DNA of 64,000 nt, taken from Neptunomonas japonica DSM 18939 (GTDB taxonomy: Bacteria > Pseudomonadota > Gammaproteobacteria > Pseudomonadales > Balneatricaceae). The notes beneath the pieces were generated by a model. It had not been told where the DNA came from and ran no database searches. It saw only the letters and a program-made list of their open reading frames with translations. Made by a program: the position numbers and the translations under genes. This document shows positions 8,052 through 15,630 of this stretch, one piece after another; the first letter of the stretch is position 1, and each line of letters begins with the position of its first letter. The stretch is from contig NZ_AUGR01000001.1 of assembly GCF_000422765.1 (NCBI RefSeq), positions 310,001-374,000 on the forward strand, in the 5' to 3' direction.

Positions 8052-9344
8052 TTATTTCTTTTGTTTCTGTTTCTGTTTTTGTTTTTGTTTTGCTTTGCCT
8101 GTCGCTTTGGCCGTCGTAACTTTATTACGAATGATTTTAGTTTGACTGGCCTTATTGGTACGTGGCTTTTGTGCTTTTTGGGTGATCTGCTTCAGCAAGT
8201 TATCGCGGCTACCGACTTCATAACCAGGCATGTTGATACGTTTTATCTTACTGCCGATAAGGTGCTCGATATCATCCAAGGCACGTTCTTCTTCGCGGCT
8301 AACAAATGATATGGCGTGGCCTTTAGCACCTGCACGGCCGGTACGGCCAATACGATGGACATAATCTTCGGCAAGATAGGGTAGGTTGTAGTTAACAACA
8401 TACTCAAGCCCTTTAATGTCCAAGCCACGAGCGGCTACTTCAGTCGCGATCATTACCTGCACTTTACCGGCTTTAAAGTCGGCTAAAGCACGTTTGCGCG
8501 ATCCTTGGGTTTTATCACCATGGCAAACAACATAAGAGATTTTGTCCATTTTGAAATCGACTACTAACTCATCTGCCTGGGCTTTGGTGCTGGTGAATAC
8601 TAACACCTGAAACCAATTATGCTTTTTGATCAGCTCAACAAACAGGTCTGCTTTGCGGCGCTCTTCAACGGGATAAACTACATGCTCGATTGTATCGGCC
8701 GTCGCATTTTGCTTCGCAGCACGGATCGTTTCGTGGCGTGACATTAGTTTTTTGGCTAACTCGTTAACCGTAGGCGTAACTGTGGCAGAAAACATCAGCG
8801 TTTGATGTTTCTTTGATGTTTGTTGGATTAGTTTGTAAACGTCGCTGATAAAGCCCATATCAAGCATACGGTCGGCTTCATCCAGTACCACAAATTCGAC
8901 TTTAGATAAGCTGATATTACATTGTACAACGTGCTCAAGTAGCCGCCCTGGAGTAGCAACTAGGATATCGACACCGGCTTTTAATTTACCTTTTTGTGAG
9001 TCAGTACTCACGCCGCCATAAATACCTTTAACCGTAAAAGGCAGGAACTGGGCATAACCCTTAATGGTAGTGGTTAGCTGATCAGCAAGTTCGCGCGTAG
9101 GTGCTAAAATCAGCGTACGCACTTGCCCTGGCTGAGTAGTGACAGGGCGGTCATGCATCTGCTGCAAAACAGGTACAGTGAATGCCGCTGTTTTACCCGT
9201 GCCCGTTTGCGCATTAGCCAGTACATCTTTACCGCGACGAGCAGGAATAATCGCCTGCTCTTGGATGGGTGTCATTTGGCTGTAACCACAAGCATCAAGA
9301 GCGCGTTGCAACTCGGGTGCAAGATCTAAAGAGGAGAATTTCAT
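8052..9344 (-). CDS. rhlE: DEAD-box ATP-dependent RNA helicase, RhlE type
   Basis: RNA helicase with the full motif set: Q motif (YSQMTPIQEQAI), Walker A AQTGTGKT, PTRELA, TPGR, DEAD, SAT, ARGLD and HRIGRTGRAG. The 430-residue product resembles RhlE, which acts on ribosome assembly and RNA turnover. The last about 35 residues are very basic and end in an alternating Lys-Gln run, likely an RNA-binding tail. An AAAGGAAAG site precedes the ATG, and a TATAAT -10-like hexamer sits upstream at 9391-9396. It is transcribed alone. Confidence 0.93.
   Translation of the reverse strand: MKFSSLDLAPELQRALDACGYSQMTPIQEQAIIPARRGKDVLANAQTGTGKTAAFTVPVLQQMHDRPVTTQPGQVRTLILAPTRELADQLTTTIKGYAQFLPFTVKGIYGGVSTDSQKGKLKAGVDILVATPGRLLEHVVQCNISLSKVEFVVLDEADRMLDMGFISDVYKLIQQTSKKHQTLMFSATVTPTVNELAKKLMSRHETIRAAKQNATADTIEHVVYPVEERRKADLFVELIKKHNWFQVLVFTSTKAQADELVVDFKMDKISYVVCHGDKTQGSRKRALADFKAGKVQVMIATEVAARGLDIKGLEYVVNYNLPYLAEDYVHRIGRTGRAGAKGHAISFVSREEERALDDIEHLIGSKIKRINMPGYEVGSRDNLLKQITQKAQKPRTNKASQTKIIRNKVTTAKATGKAKQKQKQKQKQKK
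8058..8093 (-). repeat. hexanucleotide repeat coding a Lys-Gln tail
   Basis: Tandem six-base units, TTTTTG and TTTCTG on the plus strand, encode about five consecutive Lys-Gln dipeptides at the C-terminus of the RhlE-like helicase. Such a simple repeat inside a coding frame can change length by slippage in multiples of two residues without breaking the frame. Confidence 0.7.
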
Positions 9345-9843
9345 TATCTTTCCTTTGTGGACACAGCCACAGCCAAAATACAGGGCGGCTATTATAAAGG
9401 AAATCTATCTTGCAAGCGCCGTTTTTTGTTAAGGAAGTGTAGCTTGGCGTATTTTATAAAAGTTGGCTTGCCATTATGAGGTTTAATCACCTTTTGAGTG
9501 TTTCTTATCAGGGAGGTTTTTGTGAAATAGCACAAGGTTTAGTGATTGTTGTGCTTTGATGTAGCTCTTGTCTTGGTCTTATTCTGTATAAGGTTAAGTA
9601 GTTTCGTTTTTTTATGCATCCATTCGTTATAACTCCGTCAATAGATTGCTCTAGCCTGCTTCAGCGTAATGCTTGCAAGGTGTTAGTCGGTTTCTTTGTG
9701 GAAAATAATACTTAAAACACAAATTATTTAATTCCTATTACTTTGTTTTGTGAGACTTTTGGTTTCTTTTTTTGAGTTTTGTGTTTGATATTTTGTGGTT
9801 TCGTAGTCTATTCTCAAAGCTGTATTTTCTGGGAGGCTGTTTG
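9345..9843. other. intergenic region between helicase and chemoreceptor
   Basis: About 500 bp of AT-rich DNA between two divergent genes. The rhlE promoter probably lies at its left end (TATAAT on the minus strand at 9391-9396). I looked for a sigma-28 flagellar-type promoter before the chemoreceptor and did not find one; a GGGAGG ribosome-binding site is present at the right end. No convincing small ORF or RNA gene was seen. Confidence 0.5.
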
Positions 9844-11730
9844 ATGAGTGCTAAAGCAAAGTTGCTAATCTATGTTGGTATGTTGTTCGCTTTGGCGATA
9901 GTAAGCATATCTGTTGTCGGGTTTTATCACTTTAAAACAGCATCGGTTCATAGCTATGAACAGAAGTTGCAGAATCAGTCGTTTTTGATTTCTAGGGCGA
10001 TTGGCGAAAAGATGAATCGTATGTTTGATGCGCTAGAGCTAACCGCAGATGAAGTAGAAATCAGCACGTCAGGAGAAGTAACTGTAGAAGTGCTGTTACC
10101 GCAGTTGAGCTCACTTAAAAGCCAATTCAAAGTACTGAATGCCTATGTTGGTTTGCGGGATGGGAGGACCTATGCAATCAATAAGAATGGCTTAATTCCT
10201 AATTTTAATGCTAAGAAAAAACAACGCGAGTGGTATTTACGAGCATTGGCTGGTGAGAGGAAAATCATTACGACGCCTTATAAAAGTGCTTCGGGCAATT
10301 TAGTTATGGCTGTTGCGGTGCCTATCACACGTAATGGCACTGTAGTGGGCGTCTTATCTATCAATTTATCGCTGAATACAATCACTGACTTTATTGAAAG
10401 CTTGGATGAGAATAATCAGTTGTTTGTGAGTAGGGCTGATGGGTTTATTTTGGCAGCAAAATATCCCGATTATATAGGTGCTAATTTGTATGAGCAGCGC
10501 CCAAGTTATCAATCTTTTAAGGATTCGCAGAGCAGCGAGCATAGTTATGTATTCGAGGGTAAGGAGTATTTTGTGGTGTCTTCGCAGGTAGCTGAATTCG
10601 GTTGGACTGTTTGGGCGTGGGAGTCATGGGATCAAATTTTATTGGCTTCGAATAAAAATCTTATGTTGGCTAGCATACTTGCGTTGATCTTTATCTGTTT
10701 ATCTTTGGCTGTTGTTTATTACTTTATACATCGCTTGATGTACCTTCCTATTGGAGGTGAGCCGCGGGTTATTGAGGCATTAGTGCGCAGAGTTGCCAAA
10801 GGTGATTTGAGTGATGTTTCTGAGGCTAAGGGGAATGAAACAGGTGTCTATGCTCAGGTGTTGGCAATGATTACTAATCTTCGGCATACGGTATCGACCA
10901 TTAATAACACTACGGCACAATTGAATGATTCTTCTCAAGAAATGATGTTATCTGCTGGCCAAGTAAATCATAGCTCCCGTTCACAAATGGAGCAGTTAGA
11001 ACAAACTGCTGCTGCTATGAATGAGATGACCATGACGGTGGATGATGTGACCCGCAGTGCTCAAAATGCTGCTGATTCTGCGAGTCAGGCTCAGGTTTCT
11101 GCCACTAATGGCAGTGAAATGGTTGGTGAGATGAATGGCAATATTGCTCAGTTGGTTACCGGTATTACGAATGTACAAGAAGTTATTCTTCAGCTGGATA
11201 GTGAAACTAACCGCGTCGGCAGTATTCTTGATGTGATTAACAGTATTTCTGAACAAACTAACCTACTGGCTTTGAATGCTGCTATTGAGGCGGCACGAGC
11301 CGGTGATGCTGGTCGGGGTTTTGCTGTAGTTGCAGATGAAATTCGTGGTTTAGCTAACAAAACCAAAACAAGCACCAGTGAAATTCAAAATATGATCGAT
11401 AACCTTCAGTCAGCAGCAATGAATGCGGTGAAGCTTATGGAGCAAAATGCATCAGCTGCAGAGATTACTGGCGCTAAATCCTCAGAAGCAAATCAGGCGC
11501 TTTCGGTAATAGGCGCTGAAGCAGTTACTATTCAGGATATGAATAGCCATATCGCCACCGCTGCGAAAGAGCAATCTGCTGTTGCAGAAACGATTAACGT
11601 CAGCATTGTTGAAATACATGACCTGGCAAAAAATACGTTTGATAGATCTGAACAGAATAAGCAATTAGCACAAGGGTTGGCAGGCATTGCGCGGGATCTC
11701 AATAACTCGATTGATGCTTTTAAGGTCTAA
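9844..11730 (+). CDS. methyl-accepting chemotaxis protein with extracellular Cache domain
   Basis: A 628-residue chemoreceptor. It has an N-terminal membrane segment (residues about 6-28), a large periplasmic domain with dCache features ([38 protein letters not shown]), a second membrane segment near residues 275-300, a HAMP-like linker and the conserved signalling hairpin [18 protein letters not shown] with flanking methylation helices. It lacks a C-terminal CheR-binding pentapeptide. The ligand is not predictable by eye; dCache receptors of this type often sense amino acids or organic acids. The ATG at 9844 follows GGGAGG; the open frame upstream of it is not supported. Likely monocistronic. 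Confidence 0.92.
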
Positions 11731-11823
11731 CTGCTTTAAGGTTTTGTCCTATTTAATGGTGTATTGCGTCTGTTTAGGCGCGTGTGATTCTCCATTTGTG
11801 GGGCGAAGCCTGTCATTAGTTGT

Positions 11824-11916
11824 CCTTCCCTACCTGCTCTATATTTCAGTTTGGCTGTTGAATAACTAGCCGCATCCTTTATGAGTAAACCTTGTAAATT
11901 GTTGTTAGTTAACATC
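11824..11916. repeat. 93-bp direct repeat, left copy
   Basis: This copy lies downstream of the chemoreceptor and just past the 3' end of the 593-aa gene. Aligned by eye to 13981-14073 it matches at about 82 of 93 positions without gaps, and the last 19 bases before the right edge (ending GTTAGTTAACATCT) are identical in both. Similarity stops at both edges. No open frame or insertion-sequence end was recognised in it. Confidence 0.85.
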
Positions 11917-11959
11917 TTTGAGGATCAGGACTGAAGATCTAAAATTCTGCCTCGGTCTT

Positions 11960-13741
11960 TTAGTTCACGACGTGTTGCAGGTATTCGATTTTATCCTTTT
12001 CAGCGCGTGCTTCACTGAAAAAACTTAAAGTTTCTATCAATTGCGTGCGGGCTTGAAATGATCCCATTTCGCCCGCTTTTACATCAGTTGCGTTGCTGGC
12101 CAGGTTTTCCAGTAATTGAGTGCCTACTGCTTCACTGTTAGTTAGCAGTACACCAACCAATGCGTCAACCTGATCGCCGGCAAGTTCAGTGGCCAGCCAG
12201 AGTTTTTCTTTCTGTTCCTCGGGCTGAGTTGCCTCTGCCTGTAGTAACGCTGCAGGGTTATTCGTGTGTGCAAGGCTGTTCGTGCGAGTCAGGAATCTTG
12301 TAAACTGCAGGCTTTGTTCATCTGAGTCCTGCAGCGCCAGAGGGGCTGCTCCAATGTTCAGCTGGTTGATGTCCTGCACTAACTGGTCGCGCTGTTCAGC
12401 GTTTAACTCAGAGAAAGTGGTGTTCAGCTTTGTGCTGCGGCTGATGTCATCCTGATTCAGCCAGGCGTCTGTCACCATCAGGCGGATCATGCTTTCCTGA
12501 TCCCATTTACTCTGGTAGTCATCTTTGACTTCATAGAGTGCTTTCGGGTCACCGGTGTTATCACCTAACCGGCTCAGAGAGATTCCTTCGCGGGTTTGAT
12601 GGTTGTCGCGTAACTGGTCAAGCGTTTCGATGATCTGTGGATTATCTTTCAGTTCGAGGCTTTCTGCTTCATCTTTGACCAGCGTCTCAAGGCCTACCTG
12701 AGTAATTTCAAGATAGCTGCGCTGGTGGGTTGCATCCATATAACTAAGTTTATCGGTCATTGCGGATAGCTGTTCATCACTGAACTGATACTCAGAAATA
12801 AAGCTCATGGTAGTGTTAAGCATGTCCTTGAGTACCCAAGGCATTTCATTATCCCAATCGATATTCGCCTGACCAGGTTCTTGAAAATTTGCCCAGGGGC
12901 TAAAGCCTCGTTCGAACCCCGGGCGTGCCTGCTCCGTTAATCCACCGAGATAATTTAAAAAGGAATCAGTCGCTTGTTCTGAACGATCTGCCAGGCCACT
13001 GACAACATCCTGACCTAACTGATTATCGGAGCCGAAAATCAGCAGCAGGGTATCTTGTTGTGTGTCCGTGAATGCCTTCAGGGAGTCCAGCATGGTATCC
13101 GGGTCATCGGTTTTATGAATGGCGCTGACGAAGTTGTAGAGATTATTAGCCGAAGGCGAAGGCTGAGTATGGGGTAAAATGGCATTGGCAGTATAAGTAA
13201 TATCAGCAGGCCTGCTGCTGACCTGTTCTGCATAAGTGGCGGCTTGTTCCAGCACTCTTAGCTGCGTACTCGCAGATAAAGCGGTTAGGTCATAGATGAA
13301 TTCTTTAGCCAGCCGGGATGTTGCCATTCCATAATCGGGTGCCTGGTTAACGGTTGCTGGTGTTTGTAATTTATCAATACTGCTGGCTAAGTGACTTAGA
13401 CCTGTGTCGCCTAGCGACTCTGCCAGCGCAAGAAAGCGCTCATCCAAAATTATTTCGGTATTAATTAACGACTGACGCTGCTCATCGCTAACCCGGTTTA
13501 AGGCATTTTCGATGCGTTTATTTAACTCGTCGCCAATGATGATGTATTGCTTTATAGGTGCGGACTGATCTGTCTTTTGAAACGATTCAGTTCGTTGTGT
13601 ATCAGGTACATTCTGCTGTTTTTCCAGGCTTTTGTTATCTTCCTGCAGATTACTTTTGAGTTGCTTCAGCGCGGTGTTTTCGGGCCGGGAGCTAAGTTGT
13701 ACCGTTTTGATATTCGTCAGAACAGTAGAGGTGAGTTTCAT
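11960..13741 (-). CDS. unrecognised 593-aa helical protein, flanked by direct repeats
   Basis: I do not recognise this protein. It has no signal peptide or membrane segment, is acidic and Gln/Leu/Ser-rich, and appears almost entirely helical. Short similar elements recur about every 50-100 residues: VSDEQRQSLIN, FTDTQQDTLLLI, FSDEQLSAMTDKL, LNAEQRDQLVQDI and LAGDQVDALVGVL, suggesting a degenerate helical repeat. The gene is G+C-richer than its neighbours: three 60-base lines I counted (12301, 12541, 13081) have 31-32 G+C, against 27 in sampled lines of the flanking chemoreceptor and MOSC genes. A 93-bp direct repeat lies on each side. This suggests acquisition as a unit. No integrase or transposase is nearby. 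The ATG at 13741 has the only reasonable start context. Confidence 0.75.
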   Translation of the reverse strand: MKLTSTVLTNIKTVQLSSRPENTALKQLKSNLQEDNKSLEKQQNVPDTQRTESFQKTDQSAPIKQYIIIGDELNKRIENALNRVSDEQRQSLINTEIILDERFLALAESLGDTGLSHLASSIDKLQTPATVNQAPDYGMATSRLAKEFIYDLTALSASTQLRVLEQAATYAEQVSSRPADITYTANAILPHTQPSPSANNLYNFVSAIHKTDDPDTMLDSLKAFTDTQQDTLLLIFGSDNQLGQDVVSGLADRSEQATDSFLNYLGGLTEQARPGFERGFSPWANFQEPGQANIDWDNEMPWVLKDMLNTTMSFISEYQFSDEQLSAMTDKLSYMDATHQRSYLEITQVGLETLVKDEAESLELKDNPQIIETLDQLRDNHQTREGISLSRLGDNTGDPKALYEVKDDYQSKWDQESMIRLMVTDAWLNQDDISRSTKLNTTFSELNAEQRDQLVQDINQLNIGAAPLALQDSDEQSLQFTRFLTRTNSLAHTNNPAALLQAEATQPEEQKEKLWLATELAGDQVDALVGVLLTNSEAVGTQLLENLASNATDVKAGEMGSFQARTQLIETLSFFSEARAEKDKIEYLQHVVN

Positions 13742-14228
13742 GGTTCCATCCTTGTAGTTTCAGTCGTCCGAATTACCGCCATAGTTTCTACTTAGCTCTT
13801 GTATCGGCCGCGTGTTTTTTTTATATATGTACAGATGCGAAAAAGATTAACGGTACAGATATCTGAAATGGTTCAGCGGTGCAGTATAGGCAGGGGGCAG
13901 GAAGGTATTTTAATCAGCGAGCTATCCAGTTATTTTCCAGCTTTATATTTATTTAAATAAAGTTGACGCAAGTTAATTTTACTTTCCTACCTGCGCTATA
14001 TTTCTGTTTAGCTGTTGAATAATTAGACGCTTCCTTTATGAGGAAAGCTTGTGAATTGTTGTTAGTTAACATCTAATAATAATGATGATAGCTCGGTGCC
14101 TGTAACTCTTTTATAAAACCTTTAGCCTCGTCAGTTAAATTCTATACTTGGCGTAGCTGTGTAATGTGGACGTTGGCTACCGGGTTGGTGTAGATTTTGA
14201 TACGACCTACTCAGGTTATAAGGATTAT
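13742..14228. other. intergenic region upstream of the 593-aa gene and MOSC gene
   Basis: About 490 bp between divergent genes. It holds the right copy of the direct repeat (13981-14073) and, just left of it, an AT-rich palindromic patch (TATTTAAATA near 13948). It must contain the promoters of both genes; I could not assign either with confidence. Confidence 0.5.
13981..14073. repeat. 93-bp direct repeat, right copy
   Basis: Direct copy of 11824-11916, offset 2157 bp, about 11 mismatches by eye and no gaps. It lies between the start of the 593-aa gene and the MOSC gene. The two copies bracket exactly one gene. No further copy was noticed elsewhere in the window. Confidence 0.85.
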
Positions 14229-14912
14229 ATGAGCAATCAAAACTACCTCGATAAAGTTTATTGTGGCCAAGTGGCGCAGCATTATGGCCTTGAAACTGCG
14301 ATTGATAAATCAGCAGTTAACACAGACCTTTACCTCTCTATTACAGGGCTTGAAAGTGATCAGTGTGCTGATCAGCACCACCACGGTGGGGCTGAGCGGG
14401 CTTTGCATCAGTATCCTTTGGAGCACTATGCTTTCTGGCGAAAGAAGTATGGTTCTGATCATAAATGGCAGGCACCAGGTATGGGAGAAAACCTCAGTTG
14501 TACAGGTATGACAGAAGATACCGTCTGCTTGGGGGATCGTTATCAATGGGGTGAGGCTATCATTGAGGTTAGCCAACCTCGCTCACCTTGTTTTAAGCTT
14601 AATAAACGCTGGGATATTGAGGACTTTTCTGTTGATATGCAGGCACTAAGACGCTGTGGTTGGCTATATCGAGTTATTCAGCCTGGTGTCGTGAGTGTAA
14701 AGCAGCCGTTAGTGCTGGTGGGCCGAGAGCCAAATGCGATGACAATACGTGAAGTGTGTGAAGTTTTCTTTGGCGACCCATTGAATAAAGATGGACTGCT
14801 AACATTAAAACAGCAATGCAAACTATCAGCGAGTTGGATGGATAAGGTAGTACAGCGCCTTGAAAAAAATGAAGTGGAAAATTGGAACTTCAGACTGTTG
14901 GGGCGTGCATAA
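14229..14912 (+). CDS. yiiM: MOSC-domain protein, YiiM-like
   Basis: A 227-residue MOSC protein; the family binds molybdenum cofactor, and E. coli YiiM reduces N-hydroxylated bases such as 6-N-hydroxylaminopurine. Features seen: HHHGGAERALHQYP and GMGENLSCTGM, both typical of the domain, and the conserved cysteine in SQPRSPCFKL that would ligate the cofactor. The start is the ATG at 14229, five bases after AAGGA; an in-frame GTG at 14166 gives an N-terminal extension without support. The gene stands alone, beside the repeat-bounded insertion. Confidence 0.85.
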   Translation: MSNQNYLDKVYCGQVAQHYGLETAIDKSAVNTDLYLSITGLESDQCADQHHHGGAERALHQYPLEHYAFWRKKYGSDHKWQAPGMGENLSCTGMTEDTVCLGDRYQWGEAIIEVSQPRSPCFKLNKRWDIEDFSVDMQALRRCGWLYRVIQPGVVSVKQPLVLVGREPNAMTIREVCEVFFGDPLNKDGLLTLKQQCKLSASWMDKVVQRLEKNEVENWNFRLLGRA

Positions 14913-15027
14913 GCGAAAGTGAAAGTATCAACCTGAATGATATACTTGAGTAGCAAAGCTAAGAGTTAATTGTTTTAGATTAATCGAAGAGTTTCAATTT
15001 GTGTTTTTAAATAATAGAAGAGTAAAA

Positions 15028-15630
15028 ATGAAAAAAGCGATTATATTTGTTTTCTTGTTTGTTATTGGTTTATCTCCATTACATGCAGCTACTGACTTGC
15101 TGGTCACGAAGAAAGTCTTTATGGATATCTCTATTGGCGGAAAGTCTGAGGGGCGTATTGTCATTGGTTTGTTTGGTGATGCCGTACCTAAAACGGCGAA
15201 TAACTTTTATGCCTTGTCTACTCACGAGAAAGGGTTTGGTTATAAAGGTTCCAAGTTTCATCGAGTTATTTCTGGGTTTATGATGCAAGGTGGTGACTTT
15301 ACCAACGGCAATGGGACCGGAGGAAAGTCGATCTATGGAGAAAAATTTCCCGACGAGAACTTTAAGTTGAAGCATCTTGGCGCTGGATGGTTATCTATGG
15401 CAAATTCAGGTCCAGACACAAACGGGTCACAGTTTTTCATCACGTTCGCTAAAACTCCTTGGCTAGATGGGCGCCACACGGTTTTTGGGAAAGTGCTAGA
15501 CGGCATAGACGTGCTAAAAAAGGTTGAAAAATTAAAAACCGATAGAAGTAATACGCCTCAACAGGAAGTGCAAATTACTGATAGTGGAGCGTTACCCGTA
15601 GACAAGCCGGTTGTTGTCGCGGCTGAGTAA
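15028..15630 (+). CDS. exported cyclophilin-type peptidyl-prolyl isomerase
   Basis: A 200-residue cyclophilin with a signal peptide ([20 protein letters not shown]), so it should act in the periplasm. Family motifs are complete: [17 protein letters not shown] holds the catalytic arginine and [19 protein letters not shown] the tryptophan and histidine of the active site. The long loop segment ([19 protein letters not shown]) is of the eukaryote-like/cyclophilin-A form rather than short PpiA. The ATG at 15028 is preferred over an upstream in-frame GTG at 15001 because it begins a clean signal peptide. Confidence 0.9.

Follow-up and report, generated by a model that had tools for sequence, protein, structure and literature searches.

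A single gene of probable Aliamphritea-type origin between two copies of a 102-bp recipient spacer in Neptunomonas japonica

Gene gains without a mobile element often leave few traces of the entry route. Short-patch double illegitimate recombination in natural transformation proceeds through two microhomology junctions with no homologous anchor, and its products are short replacements. Template switching of the MMBIR type also has microhomology at both junctions and duplicates the sequence that is copied twice; it is known mainly within one genome. In homology-facilitated illegitimate recombination (HFIR), a homologous anchor is located at one end and recipient DNA is generally deleted, according to PMC3240628. 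Small variable segments between direct repeats are a further related class, and PMC2884548 reports that 66-94% of these repeats are under 30 bp and attributes the variability partly to deletion between repeats.

The locus described here is situated in a 64-kb stretch of DNA, referred to as the window, from the genome G000. A gene encoding an orphan protein of 593 aa, termed X, was found between two direct repeats in the spacer of a chemoreceptor gene and a MOSC gene (Table 1). A piece of about 2.06 kb of Aliamphritea-type DNA was very probably integrated into this spacer without any element, with duplication of 102 bp of recipient sequence. Short-patch double illegitimate recombination gives short replacements, whereas a 2-kb additive insertion with a duplication is seen here. 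Compared with MMBIR-type events the duplication is present, but the microhomology is weak and the switched-in template would be foreign. In HFIR, as PMC3240628 presents it, linear foreign DNA of about 1-2 kb is taken up without an element; the locus resembles it in this and perhaps also in a short microhomology at the illegitimate junction. Unlike in HFIR, the insert shows no anchor at either end against donor-type loci, and recipient DNA was duplicated. The small variable segments of PMC2884548 share a variable segment flanked by direct repeats and the existence of empty alleles; they differ in that the present case is an insertion and its 102-bp repeat is a duplicated target. Literature searches found no close published case of such a scar, although one may nevertheless exist.

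Table 1. Features of the X locus in window coordinates.
Feature	Position	Strand	Remark
dCache-type methyl-accepting chemotaxis protein, left neighbour	9844-11730	+	also in the G007 empty allele, 89% aa
Repeat copy 1	11816-11917	+	recipient spacer sequence, duplicated
Foreign fragment, proposed	11912-13977		11918-13972 between the repeats, about 2055 bp, with an overlap of a few bp on either side; homology to the G061 locus
Tail of donor neighbour gene	11914-11934	+	final 21 bp, stop codon included; the corresponding base is where the G061 ORF ends
X, 593-aa orphan protein	11960-13741	-	ORF between the repeats
Upstream region of X	13742-13972		donor-derived, 75.8% to G061 at aligned bases
Repeat copy 2	13973-14074	+	recipient spacer sequence, runs on unbroken into the native spacer as far as MOSC
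Decayed group II intron 5' end, probable	14047-14155	-	the final 28 nt of copy 2 lie within it; the explanation does without it
MOSC-domain protein, right neighbour	14229-14912	+	also in the G007 empty allele, 79%

The two repeat copies were aligned directly and without gaps over 102 nt, with 89 of 102 positions identical (87%). The initial annotation had counted 11 mismatches and no gaps over 93 bp; this count was exact, and the full extent of the repeat is slightly longer. Its statement that one gene is enclosed also holds, the only other ORF of at least 80 aa between the repeats being an 82-aa frame on the opposite strand that overlaps the start of X. The best ungapped segment between the two spacers scored 69.5, and none of 40 dinucleotide shuffles exceeded 14.5. 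The pair was the sole direct repeat of at least 45 nt within 8 kb reported by the repeat finder in the window, a search that gapped or strongly diverged repeats can escape. Two repeat matches were obtained in the own genome (4.39 Mb) at E 0.001, and two more stretches of 28-30 bp at E 0.1. Beyond the two copies, a search of 57 genomes at E 0.1 gave just short weak matches in eight of them, the own genome included; the one in the congener G007 (contig C46) is the empty site described below. A dispersed element was rejected on the basis of two strong copies in the own genome and short weak matches elsewhere, and no other gene bracketed by the same repeat, for which a search had been suggested, was found in the 57 genomes. 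An RNA gene or attC site was rejected too: neither strand of either copy gave a stable fold (z −0.94 to 0.89), and no Rfam family scored above its threshold.

The ancestral order proposed at the outset, chemoreceptor-repeat-MOSC, is present in G007. This congener carries, in order, a DEAD-box helicase, the chemoreceptor, one repeat copy, the MOSC gene and a peptidyl-prolyl isomerase, without X (helicase and isomerase named by eye). The empty allele is 82.5% and 77.6% identical to the window DNA on its two sides. Alignment was easy up to window position 11817 and picked up at 14045, inside copy 2; the single G007 repeat is 68-73% identical to the window copies at aligned bases. The comparison with relatives thus yielded the predicted empty site, and X was absent from all seven congeners in a profile search, as expected from the earlier reading of the gene as an insertion. 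The interval between helicase and MOSC (L035-L037, compared with window 8052-14912) contains nothing in G001, where the two genes are adjacent without a chemoreceptor, a 237-aa ORF in G004 that by eye resembles a proteasome-type protease, the chemoreceptor in G007, and the chemoreceptor with X in the window. The differing contents in G001 and G004 indicate that the genus is variable in this interval.

In 33 of the 102 columns, counting G007 gaps, the two window copies have a common state that is not that of G007, which indicates that the duplication postdates the split from G007. Loss of X from G007 through recombination between the repeats was rejected, as the copies are far closer to each other than to G007. 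Seven informative sites against two place copy 2 nearer to G007, too few for ordering the copies.

To find X elsewhere, a profile built from six X proteins was searched against 116 genomes of the family. X was found in 18 of them, distributed over 8 of 16 genera, with 19 full-length copies including that of the window and fragments in G071 and G084. A contig search with the single X protein gave no relative; the X alignment as query gave nine named loci in Oceanospirillaceae-type records, including Aliamphritea spongicola (76%, best segment). The Aliamphritea-type genomes G061, G062 and G070, which bear the same genus label as G071, encode proteins with 84.3%, 71.0% and 75.8% aa identity to X of the window by tblastn. 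In all three, X adjoins the same oxidoreductase-like gene (GMC-oxidoreductase-like by eye, no family search standing behind the name). According to a published description, Aliamphritea genomes have a G+C content of 47.1-52.2% and a size of 5.0-5.2 Mb, values with which the genomes here agree.

Window positions 11914-13859 matched G061 DNA at 82.8% over 1949 bp, and 13885-13977 at 72% over 93 bp. The left limit of homology was located at 11914 in G061, G062 and G070 alike. The right limit at 13977, in the first bases of copy 2, was obtained from G061 alone; G062 and G070 gave short weak matches only at this edge. The repeat was not found near X in the donor-type loci (9.6 to 12 kb each, around X), nor in the same-genus genomes G021 and G033, both without X, which were searched whole. 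The homology to G061 that stops at the inner repeat edges and the missing repeat beside donor-type X together indicate that the foreign unit is the stretch between the repeats and that both repeats are recipient DNA. The inserted unit is therefore not gene plus repeat (2157 bp), as had been assumed, but the foreign DNA of about 2055 bp. Of the two routes of entry offered with that assumption, homologous recombination at a repeat on the incoming DNA is not supported, since the repeat is duplicated recipient spacer and the donor-type loci lack it near X; site-specific recombination is unlikely, one end of the fragment being located within the donor's adjacent gene.

In the X tree, G000 was paired with G061 at a moderate support of 93/78, just under the star level of the tool, and G000, G061, G062 and G070 formed a clade at 100/100. 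The tree comprised 19 full-length rows, the fragments of G071 and G084 being left out; it was rooted at the midpoint and contains long branches elsewhere. The TrpE tree conflicted with it and grouped G000 with its congeners G001 and G007. TrpE, named by eye, was the sole reference gene; 18 of 19 genomes had a match, and 12 of these 18 were used, five remote ones (34-37% identity) and that of G071 being left out. X of G000 and G061 are 84.3% identical, more than those of G061 and G070 (80.2%) or G061 and G062 (75.2%), whereas TrpE is 96.5% identical between G061 and G070 and 84.8% between G000 and G061. The dS value between G000 and G061 was 0.72 for X and saturated for trpE; trpE gave 1.06 for G061-G070, 0.67 for G000-G001 and 1.18 for G000-G007. 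The gene had been described as richer in G+C than its neighbours, and its G+C content is indeed 0.475 compared with 0.442 for the window. Its GC3 of 0.492 ranks second among the 43 window ORFs of at least 200 aa (median 0.412) and is close to that of X (0.497) and the neighbour gene (0.489) in G061. Gene tree, synonymous divergence and donor-like GC3 support a horizontal acquisition of X from a relative of the Aliamphritea clade.

The event had been judged not recent, with which the 12.7% divergence of the repeat copies agrees. As the repeat differs from that of G007 by 27-32%, a very rough estimate puts the event at between a third and half of the distance back to the G007 split. Such a rough date is what two copies of a duplicated target supply. 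With a recipient proxy, a donor-type locus and both junctions in hand, the insert, the duplication and the order of events can be separated.

Both junctions had to be read across 13-17% divergence. By eye, recipient and donor share ATC at the left junction and TTA at the right one; the chance of at least three shared bases at one random junction is about 0.05, which is not significant singly. HFIR expects 3-10 bp of microhomology, and here about 3 bp were seen at each junction. As for an HFIR anchor, the donor-type loci, which are stand-ins for the true donor, showed homology to the recipient over no more than about 3-5 bp at each of the two junctions. Besides the 102 bp duplicated, 87 bp of G007 are absent here. 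These are located between the chemoreceptor tail and the repeat in G007 (L035) and have no counterpart in the window; in four comparisons with window DNA, 135 to 297 of 300 shuffles were as good. This gap is no more than about 5 bp away from the junction between donor DNA and copy 2. Its edge may be a fragile site, or the 87 bp may have been lost in the integration event; they may also be an insertion in G007. The integration model leaves this coincidence unexplained.

In the preferred reading, the chromosomal piece from an Aliamphritea-clade relative would have carried all of X, the DNA upstream of it and the tail of the adjacent gene. It would have been integrated into the chemoreceptor-MOSC spacer, and the recipient sequence duplicated during integration would have left X between two copies. 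The likeliest joining step is an illegitimate, microhomology-assisted integration. In the joining that we favour, replication or repair would copy the spacer, switch to the foreign DNA where about 3 bp are identical and later jump back to a point 102 bp upstream. This replication-coupled template switching between species, in which the foreign fragment would be copied from mid-spacer on and an additive gene gain free of any element would leave a legible recipient duplication, is put forward tentatively and is somewhat less likely than not. Were it to hold generally, single-gene acquisitions of the "target-duplicating" kind would form a class of transfer scars that can be recognised and dated. 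A staggered break followed by joining and fill-in would give an identical product, indistinguishable from that of template switching.

It is also conceivable, if rather improbable, that X entered by a single crossover, on a circle in which incoming X was already joined to a repeat copy and which recombined homologously at the spacer. A single crossover yields the arrangement repeat-gene-repeat, and in PMC3240628 partial duplications of 109-950 bp in E. coli conjugation were assigned to this route, with shortened circles that bear homology as the crossover partners. However, it needs a prior joining of foreign DNA to recipient-type DNA, and the homology to the donor ends at the inner repeat edges. 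The donor-type loci, having no repeat near X, make the circle less likely than the illegitimate integration of a fragment.

An undescribed mobile element or site-specific system that moved X and made a 102-bp target duplication is very unlikely. The distribution of X is patchy, G029 carries three X paralogues, and no neighbour gene is common to all X loci, as might be expected of an element. Yet the same gene lies beside X in G061, G062 and G070, and a flanking direct repeat of at least 30 bp was found at only one of 18 other X loci (G029 contig C38, 34 bp), with a further one of 27 bp at G107; two of the 18 loci have a short flank. No integrase or recombinase gene was found between the repeats, and X matched no recombinase in the family searches; the early remark that integrase, transposase and attC-like site are missing was borne out, the repeats having no stable fold. 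Comparison of 40 nt at each insert end gave no terminal inverted repeat, 740 of 1000 shuffles being as good, and a separate repeat search gave none of at least 20 nt. Because one end lies within a gene, X has no recombinase match and an inverted repeat is missing, the insert lacks the ends of an element.

LysR-regulator-like genes (by eye) were seen near X in five genera and chemoreceptors in two, both being large families. In genus g8 (G014, G130, G131; L056, L097, L104), a chemoreceptor related to the left neighbour in the window is located a few kb from X, probably by chance since chemoreceptors are numerous.

Probable traces of a group II intron were detected at the right side of the locus. 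A 29-base motif of intron 5' ends occurred at 14 places in six of eight genomes of the genus, and not at all in the reversed control. Two of the 14 places are the repeat copies of the window, and several others are 5' fragments without the rest of the intron (L035; L039-L052). When the minus strand was compared pairwise with intron 5' ends of congeners, the copy 2 region and G007 were each equalled by 0 of 300 shuffles, and copy 1 by 25 of 300. An intron profile gave E values, varying with the training rows, of 0.0037 to 0.065 for the window (14063-14155 only) and 0.02 to 1 for G007. For the part outside the motif-finding stretch, 2 to 40 of 2000 shuffles were as good in the window and 8 to 46 of 2000 in G007, compared with 1943 to 1969 of 2000 beside copy 1. 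No intron family in Rfam matched window 9300-15100 to E 5. The intron part is probably an old relic in the spacer and not the mover of X.

That the repeats are themselves group II intron relics, with X moved as intron cargo or between introns, is hardly credible: although 14047-14155 resembles the 5' end of introns in congeners and the two RF02001 matches of G029 (E 0.1 or better) bracket an X paralogue, the intron-like part covers just about 28 nt of the repeat and the remainder is unalignable (1266 to 1706 of 2000 shuffles as good), both copies duplicate one already decayed sequence, no Rfam intron match with an E value of 1 or below was obtained for 19 of 20 other X loci with at most 1.5 kb of flank, the exception being that of G029, and the G061 donor-type locus gave none. 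A group II intron as carrier was set aside on the same ground of a donor-type locus with neither intron nor repeat.

In G029 (contig C38; L055 6340-8585), the X paralogue with 24-27% identity to X of the window is situated between two group II intron fragments of the same orientation. They are the only RF02001 matches of that genome at E 0.1 or better, and by eye each is located downstream of a terminator-like hairpin; the donor story does not account for this arrangement. A group II intron in G005 (L059 843-1424) has a match for domain V and, by eye, a C-terminal maturase remnant.

Between X of the window and that of G061, dN was 0.083 and dS 0.723, and the dN/dS of about 0.11 indicates that the protein has been kept by purifying selection, part of that history belonging to the donor side. 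The region upstream of X is probably its own promoter, having come with the gene. Searches against Pfam, NCBIfam, PADLOC, PHROGs and PDB sequences gave nothing consistent on the function of X. Weak matches were each restricted to one of six X members, for example FliL and CHASE8 in Pfam and three unnamed PHROGs, and the PDB sequences gave one match at E 0.23. X was not found in a plasmid collection or a phage collection. The structure model of X, made with six sequences, is all-helical except for two short strands (mean pLDDT 78.1). Residues 1-69 were modelled with low confidence and are probably disordered. Foldseek with this model gave no match at E 0.001, and the top rows of VIA-align, with Z up to 8.4, were mostly designed helical proteins and showed no function. 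X is most aptly regarded as an accessory gene restricted to the family, which was transferred together with the DNA upstream of it.

Either decay or poor assembly (78% completeness) would account for the state of the locus in Aliamphritea spongicola (G071 C1:395731-397339; L087, L091, L093), where X lies in three pieces and the neighbour gene carries stops too.
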